A stretch of 64,000 nt of DNA from Owenia fusiformis (lineage: Eukaryota; Annelida; Polychaeta; Sabellida; Oweniidae). Both the position numbers and the translations under genes were made by a program. Shown piece by piece: positions 3,015 to 50,398 of the stretch. The stretch spans positions 29,506,828-29,570,827 of the forward strand of contig CAIIXF020000010.1 in the NCBI GenBank assembly GCA_903813345.2. The letters run 5' to 3'. The notes beneath the pieces were generated by a model. The model worked only from the letters and a program-made list of their open reading frames with translations, was not told where the DNA came from and searched no databases. Within the stretch, counting starts at the first letter, position 1. Every line of letters starts with the position of its first letter.

Positions 3015-3179
3015 TCCCACCGAACGAAGTTCGAGGGGGATATAGAAAAGCCGTCCGTCCGTCTGTTCGTCCGTCCGTTCGTGTGTCCGGGCAATAACTT
3101 AAATCCCGGTCAACGGATTTCATTCAAATTGTATAGGTTTATGCATTATGGGTGTAGGACATTTGCTCGAGAAGGAATT

Positions 3180-6100: not shown

Positions 6101-7260
6101 CAGTTCCGACGTTTTTAAGCATTTTTGAACTAGAAATGATATTTTCTGCCAAAAAAAGTTGCAGAGACAAAAATCAGTGTGATGTCATAACACATTAAGG
6201 TATGAGGTTCCATATCCATCCGCCAAAAGGTATGACCCCTATATAGTCCATTTAAAAACTTGTGGTTTTGTTCTAAATAACGCCATAGTTGGCTTCTAGG
6301 GTACCTAGTATGCCACTATTTGGTATCAAAATAAAGAGGAGGAGTTCAACTTTCATTTGAATTACGAAAATAGCGATGTAGGTCAAAAATAGTTCCGACG
6401 TGAGCATGTTTATTACGCGTTTGCCCATCATATCAGAATTGAGGAAGTGGTAGCAAACGCGAGTCACAATAAATGGACGCTGATATCTCAAAAAGTAACC
6501 TGACTCCCTATAATTTGATGTAGATCAATCGAACCCCTATATGAACAGGTACATTTTGATATATAACACTATGGGGGGTAAGCGTTTTATAGTTGGTCAC
6601 GAACGCCATATGTGCAAAGTATTGTTATGAATTTTCGAATTTGGTGTTGGATTACGGTACTCATACCATAACTCAAATACCAGTTAACAGATTTGGTTCA
6701 AATTTTATATGCTGATGCCTAGAGACAAAGAGGTTCTGCTCAATAAGACATTTTCAAGATGATCACTGAATTTCAAAATGGCTGCCATTTTTCGTAAAAA
6801 AAACGTAATCAATGATAACTCAAATACCAGTGGATGGACTTGGTTCCAATTTTATATACTGATGTTTAGGGGAAAAGGAGATCTGCTTCAGAAGAAATTT
6901 CAAAGGCGTTAGCTGAATTTCAAAATGGCTGTCATTTTTCATAAAATTGGACGGATTTGCTTCAAATTTTATATACTGATGCCTAGAGATAAAGGAGCTC
7001 TGCTTGAGAAGAAATTTTTAAGGCGGCTGCTATTTATCGAAATTTCCGCCAATTTTCATTAAACATTCTTGATAACTCAAGTACCAGTTGACGGATTTGG
7101 GTAAAATTGTATTTGCTGATGCCTTGGGAAATAGGAGCTCTGCTAAAGAAGAAATCTTAAGATGACAACTTAATTTCAAAATGGCAATCATGTTTCATAA
7201 AAACATAATCTTTGATAATTCAAATAGCAGTAGATGAATTTGGCTCAAAATTTTTTATCA
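3180..7260. repeat. About 144-bp tandem satellite units inside the Helitron-like element, split by a nested insertion
   Basis: Units carrying TTTCAAAATGG, GATAACTCAAATACC and GGATTTGGTTCAAATTTTA recur near 3198, 3341, 3485 and 3630, and again, more diverged, from about 6670 to 7260. The array is interrupted between 3679 and 6667 by the unit described separately. Confidence 0.75.
3679..6667. mobile_element. 2,989-bp A-B-A-B-A unit inserted with a 4-bp (ATAA) target duplication
   Basis: A copies of 469 bp lie at 3679-4147, 4939-5407 and 6199-6667. B copies of 791 bp lie at 4148-4938 and 5408-6198; the period is exactly 1,260 bp and copies differ by only a few bases. A begins GGTATGAG and ends CTCATACC (inverted 8-mers). 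The outer flanks are ATAA at 3675-3678 and ATAA at 6668-6671, while intact satellite units read TTGATAACTC there, so this is a precise insertion. The layout suggests terminal direct repeats (LTR-like) or a composite of two A elements, later expanded by unequal crossover. No PBS, PPT or coding capacity seen; short open frames inside are repeat artefacts. Confidence 0.8.
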
Positions 7261-16800: not shown

Positions 16801-19800
16801 AGGCCCGGTCACACCGCCTAAACGTTGCTGGAGCGTTCCTTGAACGTTGAAAAAAATCATCAACGCCCGTAAACGTTCACCACCGTTTAACAAAAGTTGG
16901 CATCCGTTAAAGCAACGCTGTAAACGCTCGGCCAACGCGGATGTTTCTCGAGTGGCCATCCTAACGCTCCAAAAGTTTTGAGCTGCTCAAAATATTGCGA
17001 GCGTTGAAAAAGGGACAATTTTACGCCCTGGCAAAGTTTATCACCGCTCCACCAACGCCCAGTTAAGGTTTGGCACCGCTAGACGCAAGTTCGTGGACGC
17101 TTGAATCCGCTAGACCAACGCAGAAATCTTAAACGCTGGACCACCGCTGCTTCGCCAGCGTTGCCCGGGCGGCGATTAAACGTTGCACAAACGTCGGTGG
17201 AGCGGTTGTTAGCGTTTTATCAGCGTACATGGGGTTGTTGGAACGGTGTCGGACGTTGTCGCAGCGTTCCATGGTGGCGATGAACTTTTCTTTGGCGTTG
17301 GTATAGAGGTGTCGGAGCGGGACCAGAATTTGGCTATAAATACGTGGAGAAATGCACCACTGTGTAGAACACTGTGGAGACACTTGTGCATTTTACATTT
17401 GATATATATTCATGTCTTGCATTTCAATTTTTACATTGTAAATTCCTAAATTAAGCGCTCAAAGTTTGTGATTTTGGATTTTAAAAAGGTGAATTATGCG
17501 ATTTTGGTTTTTCATTAAATGTTAATACAAATAGACTTTTAATAGAATTTTCTGCGCAGCTTGTAAAATTTTGCACTCGTCTTGGTATTATACAAAAAGT
17601 TGATGCGCGCACAGCAATGCAAAAATTTGTCATGCGTCATGATTATTACTTTGCTGTAAATGTTATTTGACATTGTTAAAGCAATTTGAACGTAAATCGG
17701 TTCCAACTAATCGAAATGCAACGATTAAATTGTGATATGTTTGTTTGAAATGATATGAGAGATTATTAAAGAAAATTGTAATGTTATTCATTCTTAATGT
17801 CATATTACATTAATAGAAGCACTTTAGATTTAAAACATTTCTTCTTTAATCCTTGAAGGACTTTTGTTAAAGTTACAAATTCCAATAAAGATCTTTACTC
17901 TTAAACACTTCCCACTTGAAATAATTTCCCAGTTGTCAAACGCGATATGCTGCTAAACCAACGCTGCTGCTATTTATACCCCCGCCGAGGCAACGCTCTC
18001 ATGCGCAGAACGCCGCTATACCAACGCTCGCATTACCGCTAAACAAACGCTAGCTACCGCTCGCAACCGCTTAACCAACGCTAAAGCAACGCCGGCTTCA
18101 GCGGTGCACCGCTAAGCTAACGCCCGTGTTTTTGTTTTTTTCCCCATTTTGTGCGCGTTGACGAGCGTTGATGAATTTTTTCAACGTTCAAGGAACGCTC
18201 CAGCAACGTCCGGGCGGTGTGACCGGGCCTTAAGGCCCGGTCACACCGCCTAAACGTTGCTGGAGCGTTCCTTGAACGTTGAAAAAAATCATCAACGCTC
18301 GTAAACGTTCACCACCGTTTAACAAAAGTTGGCATCCGTTAAAGCAACGCTGTAAACGCTCGGCCAACGCGGATGTTTCTCGAGTGGCCATCCTAACGCT
18401 CCAAAAGTTTTGAGCTGCTCAAAATATTGCGAGCGTTGAAAAAGGGACAATTTTACGCCCTGGCAAAGTTTATCACCGCTCCACCAACGCCAAGTCAAAG
18501 TTTGGCACCGCTAGACGCAAGTTCGTGGACGCTTGAATCCGCTAGACCAACGCAGAAATCTTAAACGCTGGACCACCGCTGCTTCGCCAGCGTTGCCCGG
18601 GCGGCGATTAAACGTTGCACAAACGTCGGTGGAGCGGTTGTTAGCGTTTTATCAGCGTACATGGGATTGTTGGAACGGTGTCGGACGTTGTCGCAGCGTT
18701 CCATGGCGGCGATGAACTTTGCTTTGGCGTTGGTATAGAGGTGTCGGAGGGGGACCAGAATTTGGCTATAAATACGTGGAGAAATGCACCACTGTGTAGA
18801 ACACTGTGGAGACACTTGTGCATTTCACATTTGATATATATTCATGTCTGGCATTTCAATTTTTTACATTGTAAATTCCTAAATTAAGCGCTCAAAGTTT
18901 GTGATTTTGGATTTTAAAAACTTAAGGTGAATTATGCGATTTTTGTTTTTCATTAAATGTTAATACAAATAGACTTTTACTGAGACCTTTATTCAAATAT
19001 AGTATATACCTAGTGTGTTCACGTCAAGCAATTCAATAAATTATCTGTGAATTTTCTGCGCAGCTTGTAAAATGTTGCACTCGTCATGGTATTTTACAAA
19101 AAGTTGATGCGCGCACAGCAATGCAAAAATTTGTCATGCGTCATGATTATTACTTTGCTGTAAATGTTATTTGACATTGTTAAAGCAATTTGAACGTAAA
19201 TCGGTTCCAAGTAATGGAAATGCAACGATTAAATTGTGATATGTTTGTTTAAAATGATATTAGAGATTATTAAAGAAAATTGTAATGTTATTCATTCTTA
19301 ATGTCATATTACATTAATAGAAGCACTTTAGATTTAAAACATTTCTTCTTTAATCCTTGAAGGACTTTTGTTAAAGTTACAAATTCCAATAAAGGTCTTT
19401 ACTCTTAAACACTTCCCACTTGAAATAATTTCCCAGTAGTCAAACGCGATATGCTGCTAAACCAACGCTGCTGCTATTTATACCCCCGCCGAGGCAACGC
19501 TCCCATGCGCAGAACGCCGCTATACCAACGTTCGCATTACCGCTAAACAAACGCTAGCTACCGCTCGCAACCGCTTAACCAACGCTAAAGCAACGCCGGC
19601 TTCAGCGGTGCACCGCTAAGCCAACGCCCGTGTTTTTGTTTTTTCCCCCATTTTGTGCGCGTTGACGAGCGTTGATGAATTTTTTCAACGTTCAAGGAAC
19701 GCTCCAGCAACGTCCGGGCGGTGTGACCGGGCCTTTAAAGAAGGAAATTGAATGGTACTTATAACCACTTCAGGAATTGCATTCTGGTCTCTACAATGGT

Positions 19801-21912
19801 CCACGTTATGCAGCCGAAGCTGTTAACATGTACATTCCTAACAAAGAAGCCAGGATACTTGATGTTGCTGCTGGAACTGGAAGAGTAGCCGAAGAGGTAA
19901 ATTACAAATTACTATCTCAATGACAGTACAGAAAACCTTTAAACGTACTCCAACCATAAACAATAAACTCTTAATTAAACAACATATCGATAGACCATCT
20001 ACACGAGAATAATGTTATATTCACGTGCACTGACCTTTAAATTTTGTCATTTTAGCTCCAGAAATTAGGCTACAAGAACTTAGATGCCTTGGATCCATCA
20101 ACTGGGATGCTAACGATAGCTAGGGAGAAGCAGCTGTATAGAAATCATATTCCCACTTTCATCTTAGAAACAGGGACCCCAATTCTTCATGGTACGTTTG
20201 CAACAATCATGACCGTCTGTAGAGGTTAGATCAGCTTACATTTCTTCGTAATTTATCGGACAAGTTTGAAAGCACCATTTCTTAAGGGCGTTTAAGGGTT
20301 GCTAGAGTGAATGAATCAACCCTCGCTAACTGTTTTGCATTGCATTACTAGTCACGTAATTTTTTCTACCGGTCATGCGTCATAACGTGATCAGTCGCCT
20401 TGAACAAGGGAGCAGTCCTTGATGATGACTTAAGCCTAAGATTCTTAAGTTTTCAAGATCAAATGACCTTCAGAAGACCCCCCTCCCCCAGGGCGAGGAG
20501 ATTCCTCCAGGGTAGTGGAGAAGAGCTTCTGGAGCTAAAAGTCCCCTTAAGTAGCAGAAGAGAGTTTGTTACTATTCACTTAAACTTCTTAGAGCCTTCC
20601 AAAGCGTTGGAAGAGACGTTTTGAAGCCTCTCGAAGAAGTGGAGAAGCATCTCGTAGTATTGAAGACGTTTCCAAGAGTATTTGAGAATTCCTCCTGGAG
20701 GAGTGGAAGTCTCCCAAAGTAGTTGATAATTCCTCCCAGAGAATGGGAAGTCTCCCAGAGTATTGGATTATTCCTCCCAGAGAAGTGGAAGTCTCCCAGA
20801 GTATTCGATAATTCCTCCCAGAGAAGTGGAGAAGTCTCCCAGAGTATTGGAAAATTCCTCCCAGAGAAGTGGAAGTCTCCCAGAGTATTGGAGTATTCCT
20901 CAAAGAGAAGTGGAGAAGTCTCCCAGAGTATTTGATAATTCCTCCGAGAGAAGTGGAAGTCTCCCAGAGTATTGGATTATTCCTCCAAGAGTAGTGGAAG
21001 TCTCCCGGAGTATTGGATAATTCCTCCCAGAGAAGTGGAAGTCTCCCAGAGTATTGGATGATTCCTCCCAGAGAAGTGGAGAGGTCTCCAAGAGTATTCG
21101 ATAATTCCTCCCAGAAATGTGGAGAAGTCTCCCAGAATACTGAATAATTCCTCCCAGAGAAGTGGAAGTCTCCCAGAGTATTGGATAATTCCTCCCAGAG
21201 AAGTGGAAGTGTTAATTTAACTTACTAATCCTGGGTTTCGGTACCATGTTAAAGTATGGGTGTAACCTGACATGTTAGTGTTTAAAAGTTTAAAACCGGC
21301 CTTTATTTTGGAATTTTAGATGAGTATGATGGCTTAGTGACGTCAGGAGGGATGGGAGAAGGGCATATTCCTCCGGAGGCAATGCACGAAATGGCAAGGG
21401 TGGTAAAACCAGGTAAAATAGTTCTTTGTAATATCCATGCACTCTTTTGAAATACCCTTAGTATAATGATTTTAAAAATGTCCAATGCGTTAACTACCAA
21501 TGACATAATCATATAGGTCCTATATTTGGCATGTTTTAGACATAAATTGTATTGTCACGATGATCAAGACATGATATTATTTAAAGGCAATTGACATGAT
21601 ATGATGGTTAAAGGGACTTGATCACGGCCATAATTTGCTTATTTATCTCAACAATGAAATAGACAATAAATATAAGACCATTCCCATAATATAAATACAT
21701 GCAAAGCTCTTATTTTTATTTAAGGTGGAATAATATGTATTGCCATGAGAGAAGAATTCCTCGTGAGTGTAGAGAGATATAAGAACAATGCACTGGAGCT
21801 TGAAATGCTTAACATGGCGAAGCGTAAAATATGGATTCAAATAGGAAGAAATGTGGTGCCGAAATATGTATTCGACAAAACCGGAGTCGTGTTTGCTTTC
21901 AAAGTTCTTTGA
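10877..21912 (+). CDS. METTL27: METTL27 (WBSCR27)-like SAM-dependent methyltransferase, five exons
   Basis: Exons: 10877-10984, 19774-19896, 20056-20191, 21320-21412, 21725-21912. All junctions are GT/AG and keep frame (phases 0,0,1,1), giving 215 residues from the ATG at 10877. Residues 42-50 read LYNGPRYAA, 64-72 carry the SAM-binding motif I (ILDVAAGTG), 86-92 the acidic-loop motif (LDALDPS), 132-139 GGMGEGHI, and 149-155 RVVKPGG, the order expected for the class I fold of METTL27/Williams-Beuren region 27 proteins. Human METTL27 is somewhat longer (about 245). The substrate of this family is not established; a soluble enzyme is expected, as no signal peptide or membrane segment is present. 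Intron 1 (8.8 kb) is bloated by repeats. Invertebrates often have several paralogues, so orthology to the human gene is inferred, not shown. Confidence 0.9.
11984..12125. mobile_element. 142-bp foldback MITE, copy 1
   Basis: Ends ATGCCTTGGTCACATTTGCT and its near-complement AGCAAATGTGACCCAGGCAT. The inner arms carry CGGCCGATTGAGT / ACTCAATCGGCCG. A second copy of identical length lies at 49506-49647 in the opposite orientation. In METTL27-like intron 1. Confidence 0.8.
13061..13612. mobile_element. Mariner-type element with about 150-bp inverted arms and a transposase remnant
   Basis: CAGGGTGGTCAAAAAATG at 13061 is mirrored near 13594-13610, and the arms (including GACCATCAGATTGATAGTC) match inwards. 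Between them the - strand (about 13380-13250) reads KEKVYENDLRTITNLKSEII, matching the C-terminal part of mariner transposases after the catalytic D. The upstream part is frameshifted and stopped, so this is a dead copy. Confidence 0.6.
15946..16072 (+). promoter_or_regulatory. Possible internal promoter and noncoding first exon in METTL27-like intron 1
   Basis: TGCGCAGGCGCA (15946-15957) fits the NRF1 consensus; TATATAAAG (15973-15981) fits a TATA box at the right spacing. About 30 bases on, candidate exon ends are CAGAG|GTAAGC (donor GT at 16007) and CCAA|GTAAGT (donor GT at 16067). A transcript could splice to the exon at 19774 and start at Met55, before the SAM motif. No transcript evidence is available. 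Confidence 0.4.
16521..16595 (+). tRNA. tRNA-like sequence (pseudo-tRNA or SINE head)
   Basis: A-box TAGCTCAGTCGG (16527-16538) and B-box GGTTCGATTCC (16574-16584) are near perfect. The anticodon arm is shortened (CAGACTTCTG leaves a two-base loop), and the 5' end does not pair with the 3' CAGGGCA. It therefore cannot fold as a functional tRNA. A decayed tRNA gene or the Pol III promoter of a tRNA-derived SINE are both possible. Confidence 0.45.
16800..18231. mobile_element. Foldback transposon, copy 1 (1,432 bp), rich in GCGTT/AACGC motifs
   Basis: Begins AAGGCCCGGTCACACCGCC and ends GGCGGTGTGACCGGGCCTT. The long terminal arms include GAGCGTTCCTTGAACGTT and its complement. Each end carries hundreds of bases in which AACGC or GCGTT recurs every 10-20 bases; the middle is AT-rich unique DNA. 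TA lies at 16798-16799. Frames in the arms are not genes. Confidence 0.8.
18232..19735. mobile_element. Foldback transposon, copy 2 (1,504 bp), directly abutting copy 1
   Basis: Same orientation and ends as copy 1, joined with no spacer (GGGCCTT|AAGGCCC), and followed by TA at 19736-19737. It differs from copy 1 by scattered substitutions and by an extra segment of about 70 bp near 18980-19050, so the two are not a very recent duplicate or copy 1 has lost this piece. Confidence 0.8.
20650..21215. repeat. Minisatellite, about 13 units of 40-45 bp
   Basis: Units of the type ATTCCTCCCAGAGAAGTGG + AAGTCTCCCAGAGTATTGG recur from about 20690 to 21210 with length alternation (GTGGAAGTC versus GTGGAGAAGTC). 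It lies in METTL27-like intron 3 (20192-21319). Open frames on both strands here come from the repeat, not from a gene. Confidence 0.85.
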
Positions 21913-26339: not shown

Positions 26340-26672
26340 CTACCTAGAGAAAACCGCCGATACCTCAGCAACAATGTTCGAAACAGTAGGTTGGGATACC
26401 CCGAATATATCTCCATTTATCATTTGCATACAACCTGTAGCATAAAATCGTAATGAAATGAATACTTTTAGCTGACATGGAATTGCCTGAGGATTCCTTG
26501 TTCTTGACGCTAGATCCCCATCTAATATATTAATCAACTCAAGAATGAGTGGCCTCGGCATGCGATATCTGTTTAATATCTCATCGTCAGTCATCTCTAA
26601 CGGCTGACTCCTGTCTCTGAATAAGCGTAAACCTCTTCTATTGTGAACACCCTGGAATAATATGCGCCACAT
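26340..26672 (-). pseudogene. HARBI1-like PIF/Harbinger transposase, N-terminal fragment
   Basis: 110 residues. LFRDRSQPLEMTDDEILNRY, the leucine-rich stretch LILELINILDGDLASRTR, LKVFISLRFYATG, and GDIFGVSQPTVSNIVAEVS follow the order seen at the N-terminus of HARBI1 transposases. The family is about 350 residues long with a DDE nuclease after this part, which is missing. The frame stops in ...VFSR, and the DNA there reads CTCTAG|GTAGGC, so a spliced donor cannot be excluded. A hairpin MITE lies just beyond. Most likely a dead transposon fragment. Confidence 0.7.
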
Positions 26673-28249
26673 TTTCCAGCTTGATCGAACCCTAATATTT
26701 TAATTTTAGCAGACGATATTTGCGAAATGGAATTGCGATATTTATTATAGATTTCACAAAACCAAGGTAGCATAATCGTGCACTTTCAGACTTGATTTTG
26801 ATAAGTTTTGGTTATTTGTGTCTCTAATGTTTTGCAACCTATTTTTAGTTGGATGTCTCAAAGGGCACTTCCTAGATTTCTACAACGATAATGTTAATTT
26901 AAATAGGAAAACTATCAAGATTCTTGATGATATATGTTTGCGATTTATATTGCGGTAGGGTCAGGGATGCCGCAAATAAAGTGGAGTTTGCGACATAAAA
27001 ATCAACTGATTTACGTGGACGCAACTGTGCGATGACTGCATAATACCAATTTGCGTGCGGTTAGCAGTGTATTTGCGATGCGAAATGAAAATAGCGATGC
27101 GTCTACCGTGTTATAAGAAAACTGCGATTTGCGCTAAAGACGCAAAACGGCAATGAATTTGCGCTAGAGTGCCTTTGAGATGACCTCATAATATCGTTTT
27201 GCGTACGATTCGCTAAATATTTACGTTGCGGTTGCGATTTGCGGTGCGTCGACCGGATAATGAGGCCTCTGATCATCGTATATTTGAAGAGGATCTGTAC
27301 GATCTCTAAATACGCGTTCTCTACGCAGAGTGTTGCGGTTGAAATCAACCATCAGTTGCGCCATTTTGAACGAATAAACAGTGCTAATAGACGATTAAAC
27401 AGGTCATGCAAGATTGACAATATGATATTGATGGATACTGATTGGGTACAGCCACGTGGGTTCAAACCACGTGTAACGCACAATCACTGCGACCGGTCGC
27501 ACGGTGAAGTACTTAAAAATACAAGCCAAAAACTAGCTGTTTTTGATAGCATTACAAACATGTTAAACATAATGCATATGTTGTGCAATTTTAATATACC
27601 ATGGATCGAATATCGAACTGTACGTTCTAGAATTTCCATATAATTTCATAAAGAAATTCAATTAGTTTAAGACATTTTTCTTGAACTTAAATCACTGCGA
27701 CTGGGTACCACCGGTCGCTTAAATTTGGGCCATTTTAGGGGTATTTCACTGCGACGTCGCAGTAAATTCTACCGATCGCAGTCGCACGAGATTGATGAAT
27801 AGGACGTAATTGCTAAAAAGGGCCCTTGCGACATCCCAGGCTTGCGACGTGCTTGCGATAGCTTGATGAATGACCCCTCTGAGCGATATGTGATAATGGC
27901 GGGCTAATACTGGATTAACAACCCGGCAACGTTCCCCGGGAAATTAGACATCGTTAAGTGCGTATACTTTTCGTTCAGTGACAGTCCATTCTTTCTATTT
28001 CAGCCCTGAGCATAAACGGTGGTAATAATACGAATAATGTCATTTCTGAGGAAAATTAGTGAAATATACTAATTATGTATATATAAATCACTATGTTGCC
28101 CTTTCAAATGACGTTATACGGCCCTTGGTCCAATATTTCACTATATTGCCCTTTGAAATTACGTTATTGTACTATTAATGTAAACAAAGATAGTAAAAGG
28201 CACAAATGCAATTCGAAAACATATTTATCAAATTACCTAGTATGTAAAC

Positions 28250-28500: not shown

Positions 28501-29095
28501 TTTTGTTTTTGTCAGATGCATGAGAATAGGGAGATTTTGTGCTTGTGCAATATATTAGGATTATGGAATAAAGCAGGCGAATGAGTTCTCAATATTTATG
28601 GGATGATATTGGGAACAAGGGAAGAGACAAAAGAAGGTATCATGTACATGTACGTGACCCGTATAAACAGGAAGTTTCACATTTTTCGTGTATAGCGCAA
28701 CGTACAAAACCGATTGGTAATAAGTTGGTAATTAGTTTTATTTTTCAATTGGGTGTATTCCTCTGAAATTCTTTGAAAATCGATGAGCTGCAATTTGAGA
28801 AATTCTAATTCGAACTTTGTCAATTTAACATGCATCCCAATGGTACAAAAAGTAAGGAGAGTTCTACCGATGAAGTTAACTTGTTACTCGATATCGATTG
28901 TACAGCCACGAATCATATCTCTAAATATAGTTCAAACATGCCGCTACACAAACCTCAAAACTCTACGAACCGACCAGATACGGGCAATTATTAAAATTAA
29001 ATTATTATTTACATTAAACATGTCCCATAATTATTCGTTAAATCATTAATTTAGTACAATTCATTAATTTCATTTCTCTTTTGGAAACAATTGGT

Positions 29096-29111
29096 GGCCC
29101 TGAAAAGGGCC
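29096..29111 (-). terminator. Histone-mRNA-type 3' stem-loop
   Basis: On the - strand: GGCCCTTTTCAGGGCC, a 6-bp stem with a TTTC loop, matching the metazoan consensus GGYYCTTYTCAGRRCC at every position. The 3' flank ACCA is the usual one. About 13 bases on, purine-rich AAAAGAGAAATG (around 29070-29081) sits where the U7-binding histone downstream element belongs. The stem-loop begins 19 bases after the stop codon of the ORF at 29131-29433. Loop orientation fits only the - strand. In animals this signal is bound by SLBP and gives non-polyadenylated, S-phase mRNA. Confidence 0.8.
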
Positions 29112-29130
29112 GTGGTTGGTTTGTTGGTTT

Positions 29131-29433
29131 CTAATTCTTTGTTTTAGCTTGTTTCTTCTTCAGATTGTATCTTTCACGCCTTACACAAACGATACATTTT
29201 GTCATGATCCGTCCTCTACATGGTACATGGTACTGTATATAATGCTTGGTGCAATACCTGTGACCACATTTGCAGAGGAATAAATTGTTCTTGTTTAAAT
29301 GTACAGCACATATCACGCATCTACAGCCATATTTAGGTACGTCTGCCGTTGGTGGGGGTGGTGGCGGCATCTTCTCTCGGAGGCTGAGAATTTTCTTTTT
29401 ACTATAGCACATGCGGTAAACTTTACCAGACAT
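29131..29433 (-). CDS. Small intronless cysteine-rich protein, RING/AN1-like zinc finger
   Basis: 100 residues from ATG at 29433. Residues 23-28 are a proline run. Cys39-x2-Cys42, Cys54, Cys56-Gly-His58-x2-Cys61-x2-His64, Cys72 and Cys80-x2-Cys83 could bind two zinc ions. The CGHRYC core and the late KCIVCVRR resemble a RING finger with His in place of the sixth Cys. The spacing C-x2-C-x11-C-x-C-x4-C-x2-H also fits the start of an AN1 finger, with the last His one place off. The tail is basic (KKKQAKTK). The ORF is not a histone, yet it is followed at 19 bases by a histone-type 3' stem-loop, and it has no intron, as such genes usually do. No TATA or CCAAT box is evident upstream. Function unknown; a ubiquitin-ligase or RNA/protein-binding role would be a guess. 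Confidence 0.5.
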   Translation of the reverse strand: MSGKVYRMCYSKKKILSLREKMPPPPPPTADVPKYGCRCVICAVHLNKNNLFLCKCGHRYCTKHYIQYHVPCRGRIMTKCIVCVRRERYNLKKKQAKTKN

Positions 29434-30200: not shown

Positions 30201-32644
30201 GCAAAAAGGGGGAAACAGCCGATAATGTAGACGATATGCGATTTGTTCACAGGTAAATATTATGGTACAATTGACCCTTACAATTTTTTTTCAAGAGTAA
30301 TTCTTAGTTCATGAGAAATGTCCTTGCATAATCTATGTTATTTTTCACTTGCACTTATTTACTTTCATTTAAAACCATGAATATTCCAGTTGAACGGTAA
30401 TCTTATCTCATTTGTTTAGCTGAAAAGTGGATAGAGATGTTTTATCTATCAAAACATGAAATTACAGATAAGCAAGGGAAACTCGGATAGTGTGCAATGA
30501 TCGAGCACTATTTCATTTAAAAATATTTATGACAAACTATTACCATTTCAGAACAATGTACAAGTCGAGGCAGTAGAAAAAGTCCAAGAAATTATAACCA
30601 AGAGAGGTAATATTTTATTACATGTGAAGTATGGAGCTATATCCAATATCCATACATAGTTTAACTCTTGTATAAACATTTGAAATTTCTCTTTTAATTT
30701 CAATGTAGGAAAATAACACATTTGATGTCAATGACTTGATTGAACTTTAATTAGGATCATGCTAATTTTAAGGAAGACGTGAATTATACGAAATATATAT
30801 AGAAATATAAATATATATATACGGAAATATAGATTTATTAGTATATATGGTTCATTGTTTCCTTTATTCTTCAAAAATCTTCTTCATGGTTGATGTTCCT
30901 GTAAATAAGTAAGAGAAACCTAGATCAGTCAGTGATGTAAGGGGCCTCTGCTTGGCCCAATACCCCCTGAGGGGCCTGATCACCAACAATACAACTTGAT
31001 TTACAGAGTTGCAATTATGGTTTAATGGGGATGTCTATCCACCTTATGTAATGACAATATCATAATTTTAAATTTTAAAATATAATATATATTTGTCCAC
31101 TGCAATGACACTCGGTATAAACCCGCTGGAGAATAGTGTATTGAATGGACATAAACATTAATTTATTCAATTAGATACCTAGCAGCAGTGGTTACCATGG
31201 CAACATCTGCTAGGGGTTACCCTTTGCATTCGTTCGACTTTGCTTCTCAAAAGAGAGCTTCGTCTTCAGTAGTTTTCGGTAGTTTTTAACCAGACTGCGC
31301 GCAGGGTAGCTAGGGGTCCGTGGAGCAGCTAAATAATTACAAGAAACCAGGGAATATTGTACCATGTAATATTTAAAATTGACAATTACTTTTTAAATTG
31401 TGTTTTCACATTGGTTGTCCTGGGGCCAATAATGGTGTCATTTATTGTCTATTATATATTATATTTTACTATAATGTTATATGACGTGTCGCAAAAAGGT
31501 GGCGCATTTGTTTTTTAAGGGTATCGCGTGAATGTAACTTTGATTCCCCGGATTATAAGATAATATTCTAATTAAAGTTATATATCATTTTAAAGCTGTT
31601 CCGATGAAGTTTTTAGATCAAATATACTCCGTTCACAATTCTTGCGCGTTCTTTTTAAAAAAAGAGTTTTTTACCAAATCATCTGGCAAATATCCCCTGA
31701 CACGTTACATTTTGAATTATTTTTCGTCTTTAAACGCTCATAACTCAAAGAATATATGACTATTATACTTATTTTTTGTCTTGATAAAGGTAGATAGAAG
31801 TTTTATTTCAAAGGATGAATTTTAGTAAGCGTCCCATATTGTGACGTCATAGAGTTTGAAAAATAGAATCTGTTGACAGCGACCTTTTTTGCTCATTTTT
31901 TGTTACCTTCAACTTTTCAGGGGTGTACATTAAACCAAAAATACGAGATCAATTTTTAATAAATCATGCATGATTATTTTGCTCTTAAACTCTAGTTTAT
32001 TAATAAATAGTTGATTTTGTTCGCAAAAGTATGTGTTTTCTGTTGTATGTGGAAAAGTGGAGGACGAAAGGTTTTCAAAATTCATTAAAATAGGGCTAAT
32101 TTACGCCATTCGCCTATTTTCAAGCACAGCAACACGTATATTTATTTCACCTAAAATATCAATTGATTCGTGTTTTATGGTGCTCCTAGCCCATTAACAA
32201 TATATGTATGATATCAGAGTTATTCATCTAAAATGTTTTGAGATATAGAGATAAGAGCTCTTAGCTAAAACCGATGGATTTAAACTCGCTTGTAAAACGT
32301 TTTAACCAAAGACGTCCTGATCACAAGGGTCCTAAAACGTTTTAGTTAGGCGCTCTTACCCGGGAGCTCTTGAGAAAATTAACTTTACATTTGTGAAACG
32401 TTTTAACGCTATTAAAACGTTTTACTCAAGGTGTCTTAGGGCTCTAGTGTAAATTCAACTGTTGTAAATTGCCTCTGTAAAATCTTTGATCCTGTGTATC
32501 ATACATTTGGACTTGCTAGTATATTATATGTGTGTGGCCTATCACATTTATTGTAGTATTTTGTTTTGCAGATATTAAAACATTGTGAAAATCACACTGC
32601 GCAAGTGTCACAACAACTACCAACTAAGGCATCGACTTAATAAA
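30201..32644 (+). ncRNA. Candidate three-exon transcript without a convincing ORF
   Basis: Exon-like blocks with good splice signals: 30201-30252 (TTTGTTTTCAG| ... CACAG|GTAAAT), 30552-30606 (CATTTCAG| ... AGAG|GTAATA), and 32572 onward (TTTTGTTTTGCAG|), ending near AATAAA at 32639. Joined, the last two blocks are open in one frame for about 24 residues and then stop, but the first block closes that frame and offers no ATG. A noncoding transcript, a dead gene or chance are all possible. Confidence 0.25.
31191..31204. promoter_or_regulatory. RFX X-box motif
   Basis: GTTACCATGGCAAC is a perfect X-box (GTHNYY-AT-RRNAAC). It lies 3.1 kb upstream of the FAM184-like start codon. Binding is inferred from the motif only. 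Confidence 0.4.
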
Positions 32645-34202: not shown

Positions 34203-34347
34203 GTTGATCATGCCACCAGCTGGGATCTCGGATATAGGACTCAATTGCATAAGAACAAAACATGAATGTCTTAAAGAAATATCATTGAGCGAATAAGACT
34301 TTTGACTGGCGTCACACACCTGAGATTTTGATACAGGCTTGGCAAAT
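34203..34347 (+). promoter_or_regulatory. 5' leader of the FAM184-like mRNA with an upstream ORF
   Basis: The leader exon begins after a strong acceptor (TTTTTGTTTTCAG|) at 34203. ATG at 34210 opens a 28-residue ORF ending TAA at 34296, 51 bases before the main ATG at 34348. Such an uORF normally lowers translation of the main frame. Confidence 0.5.
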
Positions 34348-37300
34348 ATGGCTACCGATGGGAGTACACATAGTTTCGACTTCCGTATGTCAAAGAAGGT
34401 TGCTGAACTGACTCAAGTCGTTCATATGCTCTTTACTCGGAATCACGAGAGGGAGGTCGAACTTGAAGCATACAAAGATGCTTATGAATACGAGATTGAA
34501 GTCATATTAAAAGATGCTCGCTCAAAAATAAAGCAACTTGAAGAGGAACTTGCAAAAGCGACTGTTACTTTTGGAACGAATTCTTCACAGGTCGCGGATA
34601 AATACGAAGCCAAGTTAAAGAAAAAAGAACAGGAATGGCAAATCAAATTACAAACTTCAGAGGCGGCTCTAAAAGAGGAGCAAAATGAATGCCAAAAAGT
34701 ACGAGATATGTTAATCATGGCTCAAAATGATATTGAACAATTAAAGGGAAACCAATCTCAACAAAACAAAGATCTGGCCGAAGAACTGGAACGTAAGACA
34801 AAATACATATACGAACAAAAACATATCATACATCAGCTTGAACAGCAGGTTAAATACAAAGAGCAACATCGAAATGACGTGCTAGCTCAGCTTAAACAAG
34901 CAAATGCCAAATTAACCTCCGAACTGGATGACACTAAAAAAGCAATAGATGAATCTCAGAGAACTAAAGAAGATCTGATAGGAAAAAATAAACAACAAGA
35001 GTTAGAAATAAAAACTTTAAAGAAAGCATTAATAACCCACAGCAATACCCCTGGTCAGAAAGTTGTAAGAACTGAAAAAGCAATGCTAAAGGTAAACTGT
35101 GTGGTATATTCTTTTAGTTTTTGCTAGAACTACATTACCAGGATTACTTGCTTTATATAACCGCTTTAGTGCTTAATAGATTCGCACCATTCTATCCAAA
35201 CAGATTATTTAGCACGCTTTGTCCACCCTCTTATTTGATGGAACAAAAATATAGTGACTTTAACGTTGAAACTACATAAATGCATGAGTTGTTTACAGTT
35301 ACATAGAGTAATAGGCATGTCTGAAAACTCATTTAATGAATTTGCTTCATTACCTTAATTTCTTTAAAATTACTGATTTTCTATTGTTCTGCTTCCTTAT
35401 GCATGACAGATGCTTGAAACCTTAAACCTGACAAACTCCCATCTCTGCGCATCTGTACTTTCCACAACTTATTTGACTTATTCTTGGCCCTAAGTTTTGG
35501 CCTGCTTCAACCAACCTTGGCCATCATCGACTTCCTTGACGCCAGACGGTTACTGTAATAAAGATATCGTTGTCAGGTTTAGGGTTGTATCAATAATCAA
35601 AGCTTTGCACGAGTTTGATTCTATTTTTTCATTGTCTTTTAGCCTCAAAGAGAAGCACTGTCACAGACTAATGTAGCTGCACTTAAAAGGAAAAATGATT
35701 TAGAAATTGAACGACTTAAAGAGGTGAACTAAAAGAAGCTTGCGAAATATTAACATTGCAAACGAATGTTTATTATTTTCTCATCTTTCTCTGCACGAGT
35801 GATGCTTGTGGTCTCCGCTTACATATACACAAATGCATTGTTTTTCATAATGCACATGGCACATAAAGCCTGATATACAGGGCGTATCAAAAAAAACGCA
35901 ACAAGTAGTTATCTCGTAAATTCACAAAACTAGTGATGACTACATCAACTTCATTCAATGTACCATAAAGCCACGTCTCTCCTCTTTGCAATGATATGTC
36001 ATTCATTCACATATGGTAATGGTTGGGTGAGAAATCCTTCCATTTGCATAGTGGGTCGGCTCTGCACCAAGTTTTAGATATTGCAAAAATCAGTGCAAGG
36101 GCTAAGTGCTAATGGAAGTTCCTCTCACTTCAATTGTTGTGACTTTTACTTTTGGAGCTATCTCAGGAGCATCTGTGCTCACAATTCCTCCACCAGATAT
36201 TGCAAAACCTCAAGAAAGAATTGCCCATGGGCTGCTTTTCTCTGCTTTAACCCATAGATGACTCGCTCAGGGCTGAACCATGCATGACCGTGACAGATGA
36301 GCGCATCTTTATGTGCAAGGAAGTGGTGGCTATTTGGAGGGGTATAGGATGTATTCTTGCTTGAGTATTAGTATGAAAACTTTATTGTCTATGCCACACC
36401 TGTCACACCTTCTTCCAATAGCCCATATGCCCCTTTTCCTGACTTTTGCAATGTTTAAAACTTGGGTCCGAGCTGAATTTTGCCCCACTTTGCAAAATTA
36501 ATAATCATTCGGCCAGCCATGACTCCCTGTGAATGAATGATATTCCATTGCAAAGAGGAGAAATTTGGCTTTTTGGTACATTGAATGAAAAGGATGCAGT
36601 CAGCATTGGTTTGATGTTTTCTTCGAATATTGCAACGGGCTCCATACACTGACTTTTGGGATGTTTATAACTTGGTCCCAGGGTAATTTTGGCCCACTTT
36701 GCAAATGTAATGACCCAATATCAACGAATGATATACCATTGTAAAGAGGAGACACATGGCTTTATGGTACATTGAATGAAATCAATGTTGTTATCACTGG
36801 TTTTGTGCTTTTCCGAGATAACAATCTGTTGCGTTTTTTTATACGCACTGTATATTGTCTATTTAGTGGCGTAAACTAACTTAAATAGCAATTTAAGAAA
36901 ATGGGCACTTGTGTGACAAAATGATGTTTAATTTAGGACATTGATATGATAATCTCTTTTCCTACCAAATTCAGTTGTGACAGGTATATTTAACTTCCTG
37001 TACGCACACTTAAAATGCAACATTCAAACTATATTTCAGGATTATAACGAGGAGATTGAGCGTCTTCGGAAGGAGATTCAGCGATATCGCATGGAACTTT
37101 ATAACCGAGAGGGGAATTTTAACAGAACATTTGCCAATACAAAACCTGTTTTAGTGGACCAAAGAGCGGGAAAAGTTGCCCATCAAAGTCCAGTTGGTGG
37201 GCCAGTAATAGGACATTTACCTCGGTCAAATACAGTTATTGAATCGGGACGCCGGTCTTCTATAGACAATGGCATAACACGATCTCATACTGTACTAGAG

Positions 37301-37749
37301 CGCATGGAACGAGAGAGATCTTTTTTGGCGTTTGCAGAAATGGCTGACGAACTTGAGGTAGGTTAAGATCACATTAAAATATGATTTACATGCAAGATTG
37401 TAGAAGTGGTCTTGGCTGTTATGAAACGTTCTCATGACATCATAACAGGTATAGCATGTAAGCATGCACAAGTACAACATGGGAAGGCCAACGAGTAATT
37501 GAAGACACGATTTGACAAAAGATTAAGAACATGGTCAGTTATATGGAATACAAACCCCAAATATTGCAATATATAATTCACTCACATACAAACGATGTCT
37601 TAACCATGTACCAACTTTTCCAGGCATCTAAAAGCGCACCAGCCGGGCTTCACAGACTACCCACTCTAGGAATGGACCACAAGAGTAGGCTTGGTAGACT
37701 CTCAAAACCAAAGCCAATTGCAAGAGAAATGCTAAGCAGTAAACAATGA
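34348..37749 (+). CDS. FAM184-family coiled-coil protein, four coding exons
   Basis: Exons 34348-35091, 35643-35723, 37040-37357, 37624-37749; all introns are phase 0 with GT/AG ends, giving 422 residues. Residues 14-60 (MSKKVAELTQVVHML, then LEAYKDAYEYEIEVILKDAR) match the N-terminal signature of FAM184A/B. Residues 60-300 are an almost continuous, charged coiled coil (EEELAKA, KKKEQEWQIKLQ, EELERKTKYI). From about 300 there is a NREGNFNRTFANTKP segment, then a Ser/Arg-rich, poorly ordered tail resembling the end of FAM184 proteins. Vertebrate FAM184A/B are about 1,000 residues or more, so this is a short form: N- and C-terminal ends with most of the central rod missing. Molecular role of the family is poorly known. 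The second frame upstream begins TTG, so I chose the first ATG in the exon. Confidence 0.85.
35878..36850. mobile_element. 973-bp palindromic Tc1/mariner-like element in FAM184-like intron 2
   Basis: Starts CAGGGCGTATCAAAAAAAAC and ends TTTTTTTATACGCACTG; TA flanks both sides (35876-35877, 36851-36852). The arms share AATGTACCATAAAGCCA / TGGCTTTATGGTACATT. A third, direct copy of part of the right arm lies at 36530-36680. No transposase frame survives. Confidence 0.8.
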
Positions 37750-43808: not shown

Positions 43809-46800
43809 CTACACAATGTTGTCTTTAGTTGGTAACATTTCAACATCTTCATCATCAGATTCTGGGCTTGGTACTACCTCATCCATTTTAGGAGGTGCTG
43901 GCGGTTTGAGACAAGGGAGGTGTAAGGTCAAGTGCATTATCCCAGACAGGAGCAACATACCTCCACCTAGCAGGAACGATACTGTGTAGCCCCCAGTTGA
44001 ATCATAGATTGAACCTAGAATTAAATTAATTAAGAATTAGGTTTTGAGATTTGACTAAAACACAATGAACAATCTATTGTACAATCTACAGTAGACGTCA
44101 AAGCAAAATCACGGTTCGAGTAATAAAGTGTTAAAGTAACATACGGTTACTATTAGGGGTCACACGGTTTGAGATTTCACGGTTCGGTTCGGTTATTGTA
44201 TTTCACAGTTCGGTTCGGTTCTGATTGCGGTTCTCACGGGCCTCGTGAAATGAGCAAAAATATATGAAATTGATCCGAAAATCAGAAAACATACTAAGTG
44301 TGTCACAGTGTTTTATTGTATTCAGTATTGTAAGTATCCAGTTTCACACAATGTTTGTTTGTTTGTTCAGTATTTTTTCTCTCCCTCCCTCCCAAAATAT
44401 CTGTGTGTTCACCGTGTTGATCTTCTTGTTTGATGTTCAAGTTTTTTCAACACATAAAATAACTTGTCAACTGTTGGCAAAATTAGCACAGTACTTCACT
44501 AAACTGAATAAATGTTTTCTTTAGAAATATAACTTAAGTTCATCACTTTGTCAGGACTCAACATGGATCAAAGGCGAACGTAATACACAGAACGTGACTC
44601 GTTCGCAAATTCAATGCATTCGGCGTTCGGCTTTTTACAGTATTCTGTTCTATCAACCAATAGGATTGCGCGAAATGTTTAGCGTAGGTCACTTCCGGGT
44701 CAATATGCCGGTGAAATTTATCAACATTTTCCTTTTGTTTTTGTTATCTGCCGTCTATATCAGAAGATCGTCGTAAATATCAGGTATGGTTCGCATTATT
44801 GCATGATGATTAACGATTCCAGACGATGTTTAGTTAATTGGTATTACACGAAAGCTTGAAATGGAGTTTAATTCCGAGTTTACATTTTTATTTTTCTGAA
44901 GTGAAACTGAAAATGTCACGGTTCTTCAAGAACCGCGGTTTTCAAGATTGTGTGCGAGCTAACCGTCGTGGAGGTATGAACCGCGGTAACCGCAAGCCAC
45001 GGTTAACCGTGTGACCCCTAGTTACTATCGATATAATCTTGAACATAATTGTATAAGTCATAGCTCATATTAATTACAAGTAAAATAATGGGTTCCTACT
45101 GGCCAGGTTTCTTCCATTGGGGAAATATAAATATCAAGACCAACAGTGAAACGAAGACGTAAAATTCTTAAATGAACTAGCAATGACCATTGATGTTTTA
45201 GATCACTTAGTAGGTACCACTCGACATAACACTAGACACTAACTTCTTACTCAAAAGAGCCTTGTTTTATGAATGATAATTTAAATATACTTACCAGCTA
45301 TTGGAGGGCCCACAATTGATGAGATTCCTCTGAATAGGGTCAACATGCCAAATGCATTAGTCAACTTCTCCAAGCCTAATATGTTGCACAGGACGATTGA
45401 AGTCAGTGAGATAAACGTCGCTGGAAAAGAAACAGCACAAATCATGAACACAAATTTAGGATAAATGGGAATTTTTACGAGAAAGAAATAGACAACATTT
45501 TTCGATCTCAACCCGTAGATTGTGGTTTAATCCTGGACGTTGAGCAATTTCCCATCCGAGCAAGCAAAAAATAGACTAGCCCAGATTGATTATTTTGATA
45601 ATACAAATTACTTACCCACACATAACCCAAATACACCAGCAAATATCATAAGTGGTACATAAGTCGTACAGAACGGCGCTAACATCGTGGCTATACCGCT
45701 TATCAACAGCGCTATGTTGTGCAGAAGTAGTGGATCTACCTTCGGGAAGTCAGCAACCCAGCCCATAAATACTCTGCCAAGAGTATTAGCGATTCCTGTA
45801 ATTAGAGGTGTAAGGCATAAAGTATCTCAGGAAGAGAAGAAATTAGAATAAAAGTATAACAAAAAAACAAAGGATCTGAAACTTATGTTAACATCTTATA
45901 GCATAGACTGTTTTAACTCAATATAGCGCTGTGTTGTATTTATGAAGTTACAATTATGAAAAATAGCTTAGATATACTTTACAATAGTATACTTTGTATT
46001 CATCTTTGATAGCATGACCATACCATGTGTGTAACTATTATCTAATATATCACTGGCACCCCGGAATAGCCTGACTACGGTAAAGTCAGATACCGTTGTC
46101 ACAAATGGCGGACATAACCGTCGCTTCAATTAGATTTTCATGAACTGTATGTTTAATAGAGCACCTAGACTAAATTCCTTTGGAACAGCAATCAATCAAC
46201 GTGTCTTAATACTCATTGTACAGTTAATAATGTTCTACCATCGAAATAAAGTCTTTAATTTAACCGATCAAAATGAGATACGGGACAACGGACACTGTAA
46301 TTACCATATGCCGTTGTCTTTCTAAATTACTGAAATTCAGATTCCGTTGTCATTGACGATATCGAAGACACTATATTGTGGCGATTCACGACCCAATTTG
46401 ATCGAAAATGGGATTTCATATTGTACATTATCACAAGAGCTTAATGCATGCACAGAATTAGCGACGATAAAATCCCATTAAATGAGGACCAAGTGATTAA
46501 ACGGTTGAAGCGACGGTTATGTCCGCCATTTGTGACAACGGTATCTGACTTTACCGTAGTCAGGCTATCCCGGTGTGACTGGTTTATGTCAATAAATCAA
46601 TCAATCCATGTTATTTAATAAAGTAATGCACATCAATACTCATCGGTTTATATTAATAAATTGAGGAGAACGACCTATCCAACTTACCTATGACGGAAAT
46701 AAGCCAAGCAGCTTCTGTCGTGGAGACATTATTCTCAATAGCGAAGTCACTGATATAGACGAAGGGAATGTAGAACCCGATGAAGAGAAGGACATTTCCT

Positions 46801-49800
46801 AGACAGATGATCAAGAACTTAGGATCCTTGAGGATGCTTATATCAAGCATCATCTGCAGGGTGTCCTTTGCGGATTTGGGCACGCATGACCAACATTTAG
46901 ATTCCTTCTCCGGGGCAACGGAATCAGGAATCGTAGTGATACTGGTGACGTAGCTTTTTACATTGGGTTGAGATCGGAACTGGGGAATATTTAACACACT
47001 TCCACTGAGGAAGATGTCCTTTCTATACAAAGGCTTGGCATAGTCTTGTTTTTGTATTTGCTCGACACGTGTTTTAGGTTTTCTGGGTTTGTTTGGTTTT
47101 ACCAAAAGTTGGCCTGCACTTGCACAATAGGTGTGTTCAGTTTTGAGATGATTTAGATGTCCATTTTTCTTAGCTGACCCGTTGATCAACATTGGGGCAG
47201 TTTCACTTGTTACACCATTTCCGTTTGGAACATGACCATTCTTTGGTACTGTTCCGTTTGTGTCATTTTCTTTTGTAGGTATTTCAACTGGTCCCTCGAT
47301 ATAAGTTGTATCATCCAGAACGTCATCCGGAATTTTGTCAAGCCCATCCTTCACCGAATCGTTTCCTTGTTTTCCATCAACAGCCACTCCCGATGGGATA
47401 TAACTGTCCGTTGATGGTGACATTTCCATGTCAGAATCCCCCACGGTGATTCTTGGTGGCGCGCTGTTAATCGTTATACTAGGAGTCATAATTGGCGGAC
47501 TTTTAGAAGTGCCCAATTTTGAATCGCCTTTACTGTTCTGTCTACTGTATTGGATGCTATTCTGTCGACTGTTAATAGGAGTTCCATCTTTGCCTAAGCT
47601 ATTTACGCCACGTAAGGAATGAAAGTAAAGACTTGGCATGGAGCTCATTTCAGATTCAGATTCCTCGTCTCGTATTATTTTTTCTCTCGTAAGCTTTGCT
47701 TCTCGAACCTTCTCCATGATAGCTGTTTGATACTTGATAGAGTTTATGTTGGCACTGCATTCCGATTCGCTTCGATTTCTCTTCATAATCTTCGAGTTTT
47801 CAATCAGCCTGTCGATAATGTTTTTCTCCCGTGGTCGATGAATTTTCTTCGCTGGTTCAAGGGGCCTAAATAGCATACCTAATACGCATGCGTTGAGTGT
47901 GATTCCGGAAATGATCATCATTGCGTTTTTCCAGTCAAGAGTGTCCAAAAGGTATCGTCCGAACGGGGCAAATAGAAAGGTCCCAATTCCAGATCCGCAT
48001 ACGGCAAGTCCAGTTGCCAGTGCCCTCTTTTTCTCAAAGTAGTAACTAACAGCAACGCAAGATGGAAGATAAATGAACCCGAATCCAACACCTAAAATTC
48101 ATAAGGTAGTGTTAGATATTAGATATAACATATTACTAACATTTGTGTGCCAATATCGTATATATGAAAGGTTTGTCAACTATATACAGAGGTGAAATGA
48201 TGGTAGGTGTTAGAGATTTATTTTAATGCCCATCCTTGGATTTAAAAATAAAGGTAATCCTGTTATTGATAACTAACAATACTAACATTTGAATAATCAA
48301 AACAAAAGTATCATTTTTGCAATCCACCAAATACTAACTGGATCTTTAACCAAACGTAACGTTTAAAGCACACTATTGACCTTTTTAAATATAATGATGA
48401 ACTTTCCTTTACAAAAAAAAATATGTATAAAACTGTGTTTATGGTTTTTACTTCGACAATACCGTTTTTCAACCTTGTACAATTTGAACTTTTGAATTAA
48501 TTACACCAATTAATAAATGATTATAAAAAATAATTTTTACCATTATTGTAAAGATACGATAAAAATAAAATTTAAATCAACAGTGTGACGTTTTAACATC
48601 GTTAAGACAATTTTCTCTCTCTCGTCAATATATAAATCACACAGGCTCTGCCAAACCAGAGCATCCTCACAAATTGGTGTACAGATTAACTTTAATTGTA
48701 TGTACTTTTCATCTCAACAGGTAATAATAGATGGCAGGTATGATCCCCATATAATATTGATTATAATTTATAATGCAGCAGCACTACTCAATACATTATA
48801 ATGAAAGGGTGTATGAATATTGGTCGAAATTACATCATAGTGCCTGCGTGATATATAAATGCATATGTTTATCAATTATTGGTCATATAATTATCACATA
48901 CATTGAACACATACATTTACTAAATCAGTAATGAAAATGTATTAACCATCTGCCAGATAAAAGGCATAAACTGTATATTACTTTTACATGTTAATACACA
49001 GCTGAAGAAAATTAATTTGTTGAAAAGACCAGGAAGTATATTTTACAATAAGGAGGTTTAGGTACGCGCCTTTAAAAGAACTTGTTCGTGATCATAAAAT
49101 CTTATGAAAGTACTGCCCCCTCCTCTCAATACCCAGAGGATCACGATTCTCCACGTTCATATACAAGTTCGCTCAAAAGAGTGTGGCTTGAGCCCCCTTA
49201 TTAAGGCAATATTTGCCTGTATATAAATTACCTCCAAGGACGCCATACGTGAAGATGAACAGGTTAATGTCGTCGCAGAAGGAACATAGAAAGAACCCTA
49301 GAGATGCCAGCAAACCCCCAAATACAGTCACTGGTCTGCATCCAAATCTATTGGCCAGGGCACTCACTATTGGACCTGAAATTAATGTGTATATTTTACA
49401 ATGGCGCACAACACTTTCTGACAGATCTGTTTAATAATATTGGCCAGGGCACTTACTATTGGACCTGAATTTAATGTATATATTTTACAATGGCGCACAA
49501 CACTAATGCCTGGGTCACATTTGCTGCGATTCATCGGCCGGCGCCCGGCCGATTGAGTATTTTGTTGAAAATTGAATACGTTTCTGAAGAAAATACTCAA
49601 TCGGCCGGGCGCCGTAGTGAAAATCGGAGCAAATGTGACCAAGGCATAAGGTCCGACACATCTGTTTAATATGGCTTTAAGGGAGGGATGCTTACATAAT
49701 TGACCCTAAACAAGGCTTGATACGGATGTTCTTTGTGAAACCTTAAGTATTTTCAAAGGTCTCTAGATAGGAAAAAATGAATCATAATGAAGTCTAGCAG

Positions 49801-50398
49801 ACTACATTGCAGCTCATCAATCATAAAATTAAAAAGCATAGATCTATAGTTGTATATTGAGGACCCAATGTTCAGGTTTGAGCTCATTTATACTTTGGAA
49901 ATACAAAATGTGAACGGAGGGTGGATATTAATCCTGATTTTTGATTTTTTTGGGGGGGGGTTCAGCTCAAATACAATCATACTTAATGCTGAACATCTAT
50001 GGCTATTAATGTTGATGGCTAGCAAACTGATCGATATGCTGGTACACCAAGATACATGTAATTCTAAAAAGAGGACTTGGTTGGAGGATGATAATAGTTA
50101 CGATATTCAAATGGTTACCTGCGCAGAGGTACATCCCGCAAAGCAGAGACCCGGCCATAGCAGTCTTCCCTTTGCTGGCACCAAAGTATACGACGAACTC
50201 CATGTAGAATACGCCAAATGTAAAGGCAATCCCATCCACTATACAGTTATTTAACATGGATGCTACAACGATCACCCATCCCCACCCTCCATCCGGCGGG
50301 GTAGGGATATAGTTACTGATGCTATCGTTTGATGTCGTAGACTCGCCTGAAGCGTGGCGTATGCGTTTCTTCTCGAATTCTGTAGGCCCAGTCGTCAT
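43809..50398 (-). CDS. SLC16-family monocarboxylate transporter, six exons
   Basis: Exons in transcript order: 50398-50119, 49375-49232, 48091-46688, 45795-45616, 45420-45295, 44014-43809. All five introns are phase 1 with GT/AG ends; the product is 779 residues. The N-terminus carries PDGGWGW, the family signature just before membrane span 1; YYFEKKRALATGLA in exon 3 is the second signature. GMYLCAG joins to GPIVSALANRFGCRPVT across intron 1, and RGISSIVGPPIAG closes the C-terminal half. Twelve spans are expected in the plasma membrane, moving monocarboxylates or related small solutes, often with protons. The loop between spans 6 and 7 is about 350 residues (roughly 217-565), Ser/Asn-rich, far longer than usual. 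The tail is acidic (ESDDEDVEM). Closest subtype (MCT9/12/14-like) cannot be decided here. The ATG at 50398 precedes the signature by about 35 residues, normal for the family. Confidence 0.92.
44154..45020. mobile_element. 867-bp non-autonomous hAT element with perfect target duplication
   Basis: TIRs TAGGGGTCACACGGTT / AACCGTGTGACCCCTA are 16 bp and exact. The 8-bp target duplication GTTACTAT lies at 44146-44153 and 45021-45028. Subterminal GGTTCGGTTCGGTT and AACCGCGGTT repeats are the expected transposase sites. It sits in SLC16 intron 5 and has no transposase frame. Confidence 0.9.
46051..46582. mobile_element. About 530-bp foldback MITE in SLC16 intron 3
   Basis: AGCCTGACTACGGTAAAGTC...ACCGTTGTCACAAATGGCGG...ACATAACCGTCGCTTCAA (46068-46132) is mirrored at 46506-46567; the arms exceed 60 bp with almost no mismatch. 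The outermost bases are less clear (CACTGGCACC versus GGTGTGACTGG). Confidence 0.8.
49349..49505. repeat. 89-bp tandem duplication covering the SLC16 exon 2 acceptor
   Basis: 49349-49437 and 49438-49505 (continued beyond a MITE) share TATTGGCCAGGGCACT, GGACCTGAA and TATTTTACAATGGCGCACAA. On the - strand the first copy holds the true acceptor (TTTCAG|GTCC at 49375) and 27 coding bases; the second, upstream in the transcript, carries a decoy acceptor at 49464. Confidence 0.85.
49506..49647. mobile_element. 142-bp foldback MITE, copy 2, inside the duplicated segment
   Basis: Same family and length as 11984-12125, opposite orientation. It interrupts the second copy of the 89-bp duplication after CACAACACT, so it arrived after the duplication or in an already duplicated allele. 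Confidence 0.85.

Follow-up and report, generated by a model that had tools for sequence, protein, structure and literature searches.

A complete histone-type mRNA 3' end signal stands 19 nt behind the stop codon of a same-strand reading frame that does not encode a histone, confirming the central claim of an earlier note made on this DNA. In the 64-kb stretch analyzed here (the window), positions 29071-29116 on the minus strand matched the Rfam family RF00032 (Histone3) over model positions 1-46 of 46, scoring 37.3 bits where the gathering level is 34, with an E-value of 2.7e-7 for a search of 64 kb. No other Rfam match in the 64 kb reached gathering level, and by score the signal belongs fully to the family. 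The reading frame in front of it is a 100-codon ORF (29131..29433, minus strand), intronless as read from the DNA, with a basic product of 100 aa that carries a RING/AN1-like cross-brace zinc-finger pattern. The signal itself is of a known kind (RF00032); the protein encoded in front of it is not a histone.

Histone-type signal behind the ORF

The ORF stops at TAG and is followed by a 19-nt spacer, AAACCAACAAACCAACCAC (29112..29130, minus strand), which leads into the histone-type stem-loop GGCCCTTTTCAGGGCC (29096..29111, minus strand). The structure has a 6-bp stem and a 4-nt loop, and was evaluated with RF00032, by folding and against shuffled sequence. ACCA follows the stem directly (29092..29095, minus strand), and cleavage would be expected just behind it, a position taken from what is known of histone mRNAs. 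A candidate histone downstream element for U7, AAAAGAG (29076..29082, minus strand), starts 13 nt after the stem and lies inside the RF00032 match. Purine-rich downstream elements usually stand about 10-20 nt after the stem in replication-dependent histone 3' ends, as the AAAAGAG does here, and the chance expectation of this heptamer is ~0.006 in 40 nt. It is complementary to CUCUUUU, the core of the vertebrate U7 snRNA, and would be a candidate for pairing with the U7 of the host.

The distances also resemble those of histone genes, in which the stem-loop follows the stop codon of an intronless ORF by no more than about 100 nt. The probability that a randomly placed stem would fall in a given 90-nt stretch behind this stop is about 7e-4. 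The parts had all been described in the earlier note (a consensus stem-loop in one orientation, the ACCA flank, a purine-rich U7-like site about 13 bases on, and a stem 19 bases past the stop of a same-strand intronless ORF of 100 residues), and we recovered each of them.

Chance and orientation controls

The histone core pattern had no match on the plus strand of the window and one on the minus strand, and a looser stem-loop pattern hit that site on either strand. The hairpin folded as expected, with 3 of 200 shuffles folding as well, and its complement folded too (11/200 shuffles as well). Since the hairpin folds on either strand, its orientation rests on the sequence of the loop and the flank. 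Core plus ACC (19 bases) occurred once in the real window, on the minus strand only. In 300 dinucleotide-shuffled windows, searched on both strands, the 16-base core was recovered ten times and a stricter core twice, while core plus ACC was never recovered. The E-value of the RF00032 match, scaled to one family in 1 Gb, is about 1e-6.

As control loci, we collected exact matches to a 20-base core plus ACCA from the viral collection, which gave 9 + 12 = 21 contigs, none of which reached the RF00032 gathering level. A bacterial genome locus (L010) with one 22-base match, lying across coding ORFs, did not match RF00032 either. Of the 22 loci chosen for an exact match to the core (21 viral contigs and L010), none passed RF00032, and the window locus did, so the match in the window holds more than the bare core. 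A chance origin of the signal is unlikely, given the absence of core plus ACC from the 300 shuffled windows and the failure of all 21 viral contigs to pass RF00032.

The encoded protein

An in-frame TGA lies three codons before the ATG, so the ORF is a complete reading frame unless it is spliced from upstream. The predicted product has a pI of 9.99, with 24 K/R, 3 D/E, 10 Cys and 4 His. It is not a histone, in agreement with the earlier note: no Pfam histone family was among the matches of the ORF, and tblastn with five histones gave nothing at the locus. The ORF starts with MSGK, which recalls the MSGRGK at the beginning of H2A and H4 and may be a weak hint.

RING fingers follow the pattern C-x2-C-x(9-39)-C-x(1-3)-H-x(2-3)-C-x2-C-x(4-48)-C-x2-C. 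The ORF satisfies every spacing through Cys39, Cys42, Cys56, His58, Cys61, His64, Cys80 and Cys83, reading C-x2-C-x13-C-x-H-x2-C-x2-H-x15-C-x2-C, but its sixth ligand is His where RING fingers have Cys; further Cys and His stand at C37, C54, H69 and C72. We widened the RING pattern to accept His at ligand 6, a change chosen after the ORF had been seen. Among 201 real stop-to-stop segments with 60 aa or more, one had the widened pattern, and among 24,073 segments taken from shuffled windows (150 in all) none did. When the residues of the ORF itself were shuffled 200,000 times, the pattern arose in 27 cases. AN1 fingers follow C-x2-C-x(9-12)-C-x(1-2)-C-x4-C-x2-H-x5-H-x-C, and this strict pattern failed on the ORF. 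A relaxed version (x4-5, x1-2), loosened to fit, matched the ORF and none of 200,000 residue shuffles. Like the AN1 domains of PDB 1wff and 1wfh (PF01428), the ORF has F-x-C-K-C-G-x-x-Y-C-x-x-H with a CxxC ahead of it; it differs from them in having one residue fewer between the two His and one more ahead of the last Cys.

Family searches gave sub-threshold matches. The whole ORF matched the Pfam family IBR with E 0.81, and the best matches of its fragments were IBR (0.055), zf-RING_5 (0.09), zf-RING_2 (0.12) and zf-AN1 (0.25). All Pfam scores were below the curated cut-offs, in spite of the likeness to RING finger proteins (zf-RING_5, zf-RING_2, zf-C3HC4). A PDB search with the whole ORF returned five weak matches: a collagen chain and an AN1 domain (both E 0.045), another AN1 domain (E 0.083), and two matches to a mitoribosome assembly factor (E 0.2 and 0.38). 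With an ORF fragment the only matches were the same two AN1 domains (E 0.23 and 1.9). One weak NCBIfam match (E 0.015), to a family of bacteria, scored 15.6 bits where the cut-off is 45 and was set aside. AlphaFold2 with the single sequence gave a pLDDT of 49.8 and no confident fold. Codon usage lent no support for coding: the ORF ranked 47th of 107 ATG ORFs of at least 50 aa, with a negative full score (-0.117 bits per codon) and a synonymous score near zero (training set of 861 codons).

The ORF probably encodes a real protein, because its Cys/His spacing is of the RING type and absent from the 24,073 shuffled segments. The product appears to be RING/AN1-like, and the RING pattern with His at ligand 6 seems to fit at least as well as AN1. 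Of the reading given in the earlier note, a full-length histone-type signal just behind a same-strand, non-histone ORF with a zinc-finger pattern was supported. From its ligand pattern the product would be zinc-binding, and its basic character would suit a nuclear or chromatin role. Neither viral_contigs, with 27 stretches that fit the pattern, nor genome_contigs, with 106, gave a confirmed relative of the ORF, which says little because these collections contain no animal genomes.

Surroundings of the gene

The only match of five poly(A) hexamers in the 496 nt after the stem was an AATAAA (28737..28742, minus strand), a possible distant poly(A) signal that starts at the 354th base; the first 353 nt beyond the stem contained none of the five. 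Upstream, a short motif list found one match each to CATAAA, TATTTA, GATATT and ACGTCA in the 401 nt before the ORF, and no TATAWA box or YCATTCR cap motif there.

The earlier note had offered, as one reading, an ORF that captured the tail of a lost histone gene. A tblastn of five histones against the whole 64 kb gave no match with E below 1 (best E 1.3), a result that speaks neither for nor against such a capture: a short or decayed histone piece would escape this search, and a small duplication would leave no trace for it. A second copy of the ORF was not found in the window, the next tblastn match having E 0.58. The ORF sits between a transposase-like ORF fragment (26340-26672, minus strand; weak HTH_Tnp_4 match, E 0.018), which we take to resemble the Harbinger/HARBI1 type, and a coiled-coil frame that begins at 34339. 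Seven inverted pairs occur in the 26-33 kb region, two of which, both weak, enclose the ORF: 28753-28776 / 31745-31768 (24 nt at 71%) and 26710-26729 / 31680-31699 (20 nt at 80%). We rejected them as terminal repeats and judged both to be chance pairs, short, imperfect and of the kind expected in 7 kb.

Proposed origin of the mRNA 3' end

The ORF, the signal, their order, their strand and their spacing are observed directly in the DNA. In histone mRNA, SLBP binds the stem-loop, U7 snRNP binds the downstream element, and CPSF73 cleaves after ACCA. The mRNA of the zinc-finger gene may be expected to end in the histone style, since the DNA-encoded parts are present, ordered and plausibly spaced behind the ORF. 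We somewhat favor the explanation that a non-histone gene for a small basic RING/AN1-like protein acquired a complete replication-dependent-histone 3' signal and that its mRNA is processed by SLBP and U7. SLBP would bind the stem-loop of the pre-mRNA, U7 snRNP would pair with AAAAGAG, and CPSF73 would cut just after ACCA, leaving an mRNA without a poly(A) tail and limiting expression of the gene to S phase. Transcription of the gene, its use of SLBP and U7 and its S-phase timing are what we infer from this arrangement. The signal would most simply have been obtained by duplication of the 3' end of a histone gene. The lack of poly(A) hexamers in the first 353 nt after the stem and of a histone relic by tblastn also speaks for this explanation; the codon usage, the upstream stretch of 401 nt with neither TATAWA box nor YCATTCR motif, and the low-confidence AlphaFold2 model speak against it.

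The same signal would be present if the gene were dual-ended, with the stem-loop used in dividing cells and the AATAAA at 28737-28742 giving the main mRNA elsewhere, like H2AX-like variants. A hexamer is available at the 354th base beyond the stem, and the bdelloid H2Abd and H2Abd1 genes have a stem-loop together with a putative poly(A) signal according to excerpts of PMC2642717; we nevertheless regard this as rather unlikely, the AATAAA being distant and of a kind common by chance in DNA of about 36% GC. The signal could instead be an unused relic, either a histone 3' end copied behind an unrelated ORF or the remnant of a histone gene that was lost and replaced. Histone genes are generally multicopy, hence the signal is available for duplication, and a single copy with no relative in viral_contigs or genome_contigs (both without animal genomes) offers nothing to show selection. 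However, the stem and loop, both flanks and the downstream element have all stayed intact at the usual spacing, and tblastn found no other histone sequence in the window, a search that would miss a short or decayed piece; an idle tail is unlikely on this evidence.

It is quite improbable that the ORF belongs to a mobile element, or to an inserted virus, bearing a histone-type end. The transposase-like fragment about 2.5 kb away and the two inverted pairs that enclose the ORF would be in keeping with it, but the pairs are chance-like, the ORF has no second copy in the window, and it has no relatives in viral_contigs. A hairpin that arose behind the ORF by chance is very improbable: the bare 16-base core appears about 0.03 times per shuffled window and a bacterial genome has the 22-base match of L010, whereas core plus ACC is absent from all 300 shuffles and the window locus passes RF00032 where 0/22 exact-core loci do. 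The acquisition of a working histone-type end by the zinc-finger gene stays our preferred reading. We advance tentatively that an animal may truly express a non-histone gene in S phase through an mRNA that is processed by SLBP and U7 and lacks a poly(A) tail, perhaps since its basic zinc-binding protein is needed with new chromatin.

Comparison with known histone-type ends

The signal resembles the 3' end of replication-dependent histone mRNA (RF00032; SLBP/U7 snRNP/CPSF73) in its stem, loop, ACCA and purine-rich downstream element. The gene shares with replication-dependent histone genes a stem close behind the stop, a small basic protein and an ORF intronless as read; it differs in that the protein is non-histone and that tblastn revealed no histone gene anywhere in the 64 kb. 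A possible second, polyadenylated end downstream is a likeness to the bdelloid H2Abd/H2Abd1 and H2AX-type genes, which, unlike the ORF described here, encode histones; the stem of bdelloid histones lies 40-80 bp from the stop, and that of the 100-aa ORF is nearer at 19 nt (excerpts of PMC2642717). In a bivalve, all studied histone mRNAs had the stem-loop and four had purine-rich elements nearby (excerpt of PMC6210712), and in a cnidarian the stem-loop and downstream element were treated as hallmarks of replication-dependent histones (excerpt of PMC5011920). SLBP is reported to bind a viral frameshift RNA (excerpt of PMC12166091), a case that does not concern the 3' end of an mRNA.

Excerpts of PMC6303110 and PMC2642717 describe histone mRNAs as the only metazoan coding mRNAs with a stem-loop end, and this statement lowers the prior for non-histone use. 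Among the matches listed, excerpts of open-licence papers, we noticed no non-histone metazoan mRNA with a histone-type end. The present case is a single sequence from one genome. A single well-founded exception would mean that a gene of another kind can capture the SLBP/U7 pathway, and it would identify a protein whose synthesis an animal couples to DNA replication via the histone route. The search for more cases is made simple: RF00032 matches within 100 nt of non-histone stop codons.

Other features of the window

The window is probably animal DNA, to judge from its spliced-looking genes, its transposase and the histone-type signal. GC content ranged from 31 to 43% across it in 2-kb steps, and a tRNA search by ARAGORN under the bacterial code was negative. 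The coiled-coil reading frame (34339-35127, plus strand) had weak matches to Baculo_PEP_C (E 0.00021) and FAM184 (E 0.0065), and another plus-strand frame, at 36977-37366, had no clear match. Three frames on the minus strand (46653-47948, 49173-49409 and 50006-50398) resemble exons of an MFS gene of the monocarboxylate-transporter type, with weak MFS_1 matches in the first two and none in the third. A pair of almost identical ORFs of 76 aa lies at 4173-4403 and 5433-5663 (minus strand), 1,260 bases apart and the first without a Pfam match, and represents a duplication or repeat. Two nearly identical 84-aa ORFs lie 1,432 bases apart at 17129-17383 and 18561-18815 (minus strand), the second without a Pfam match. 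The tandem arrays at 3164-3678 and 6668-7063 are built of units (145, 147 and 117 bases) that look alike, and an array of about 13 copies of a 41-base unit spans 20664-21210, with ORFs of 104 and 85 aa running across it on opposite strands.
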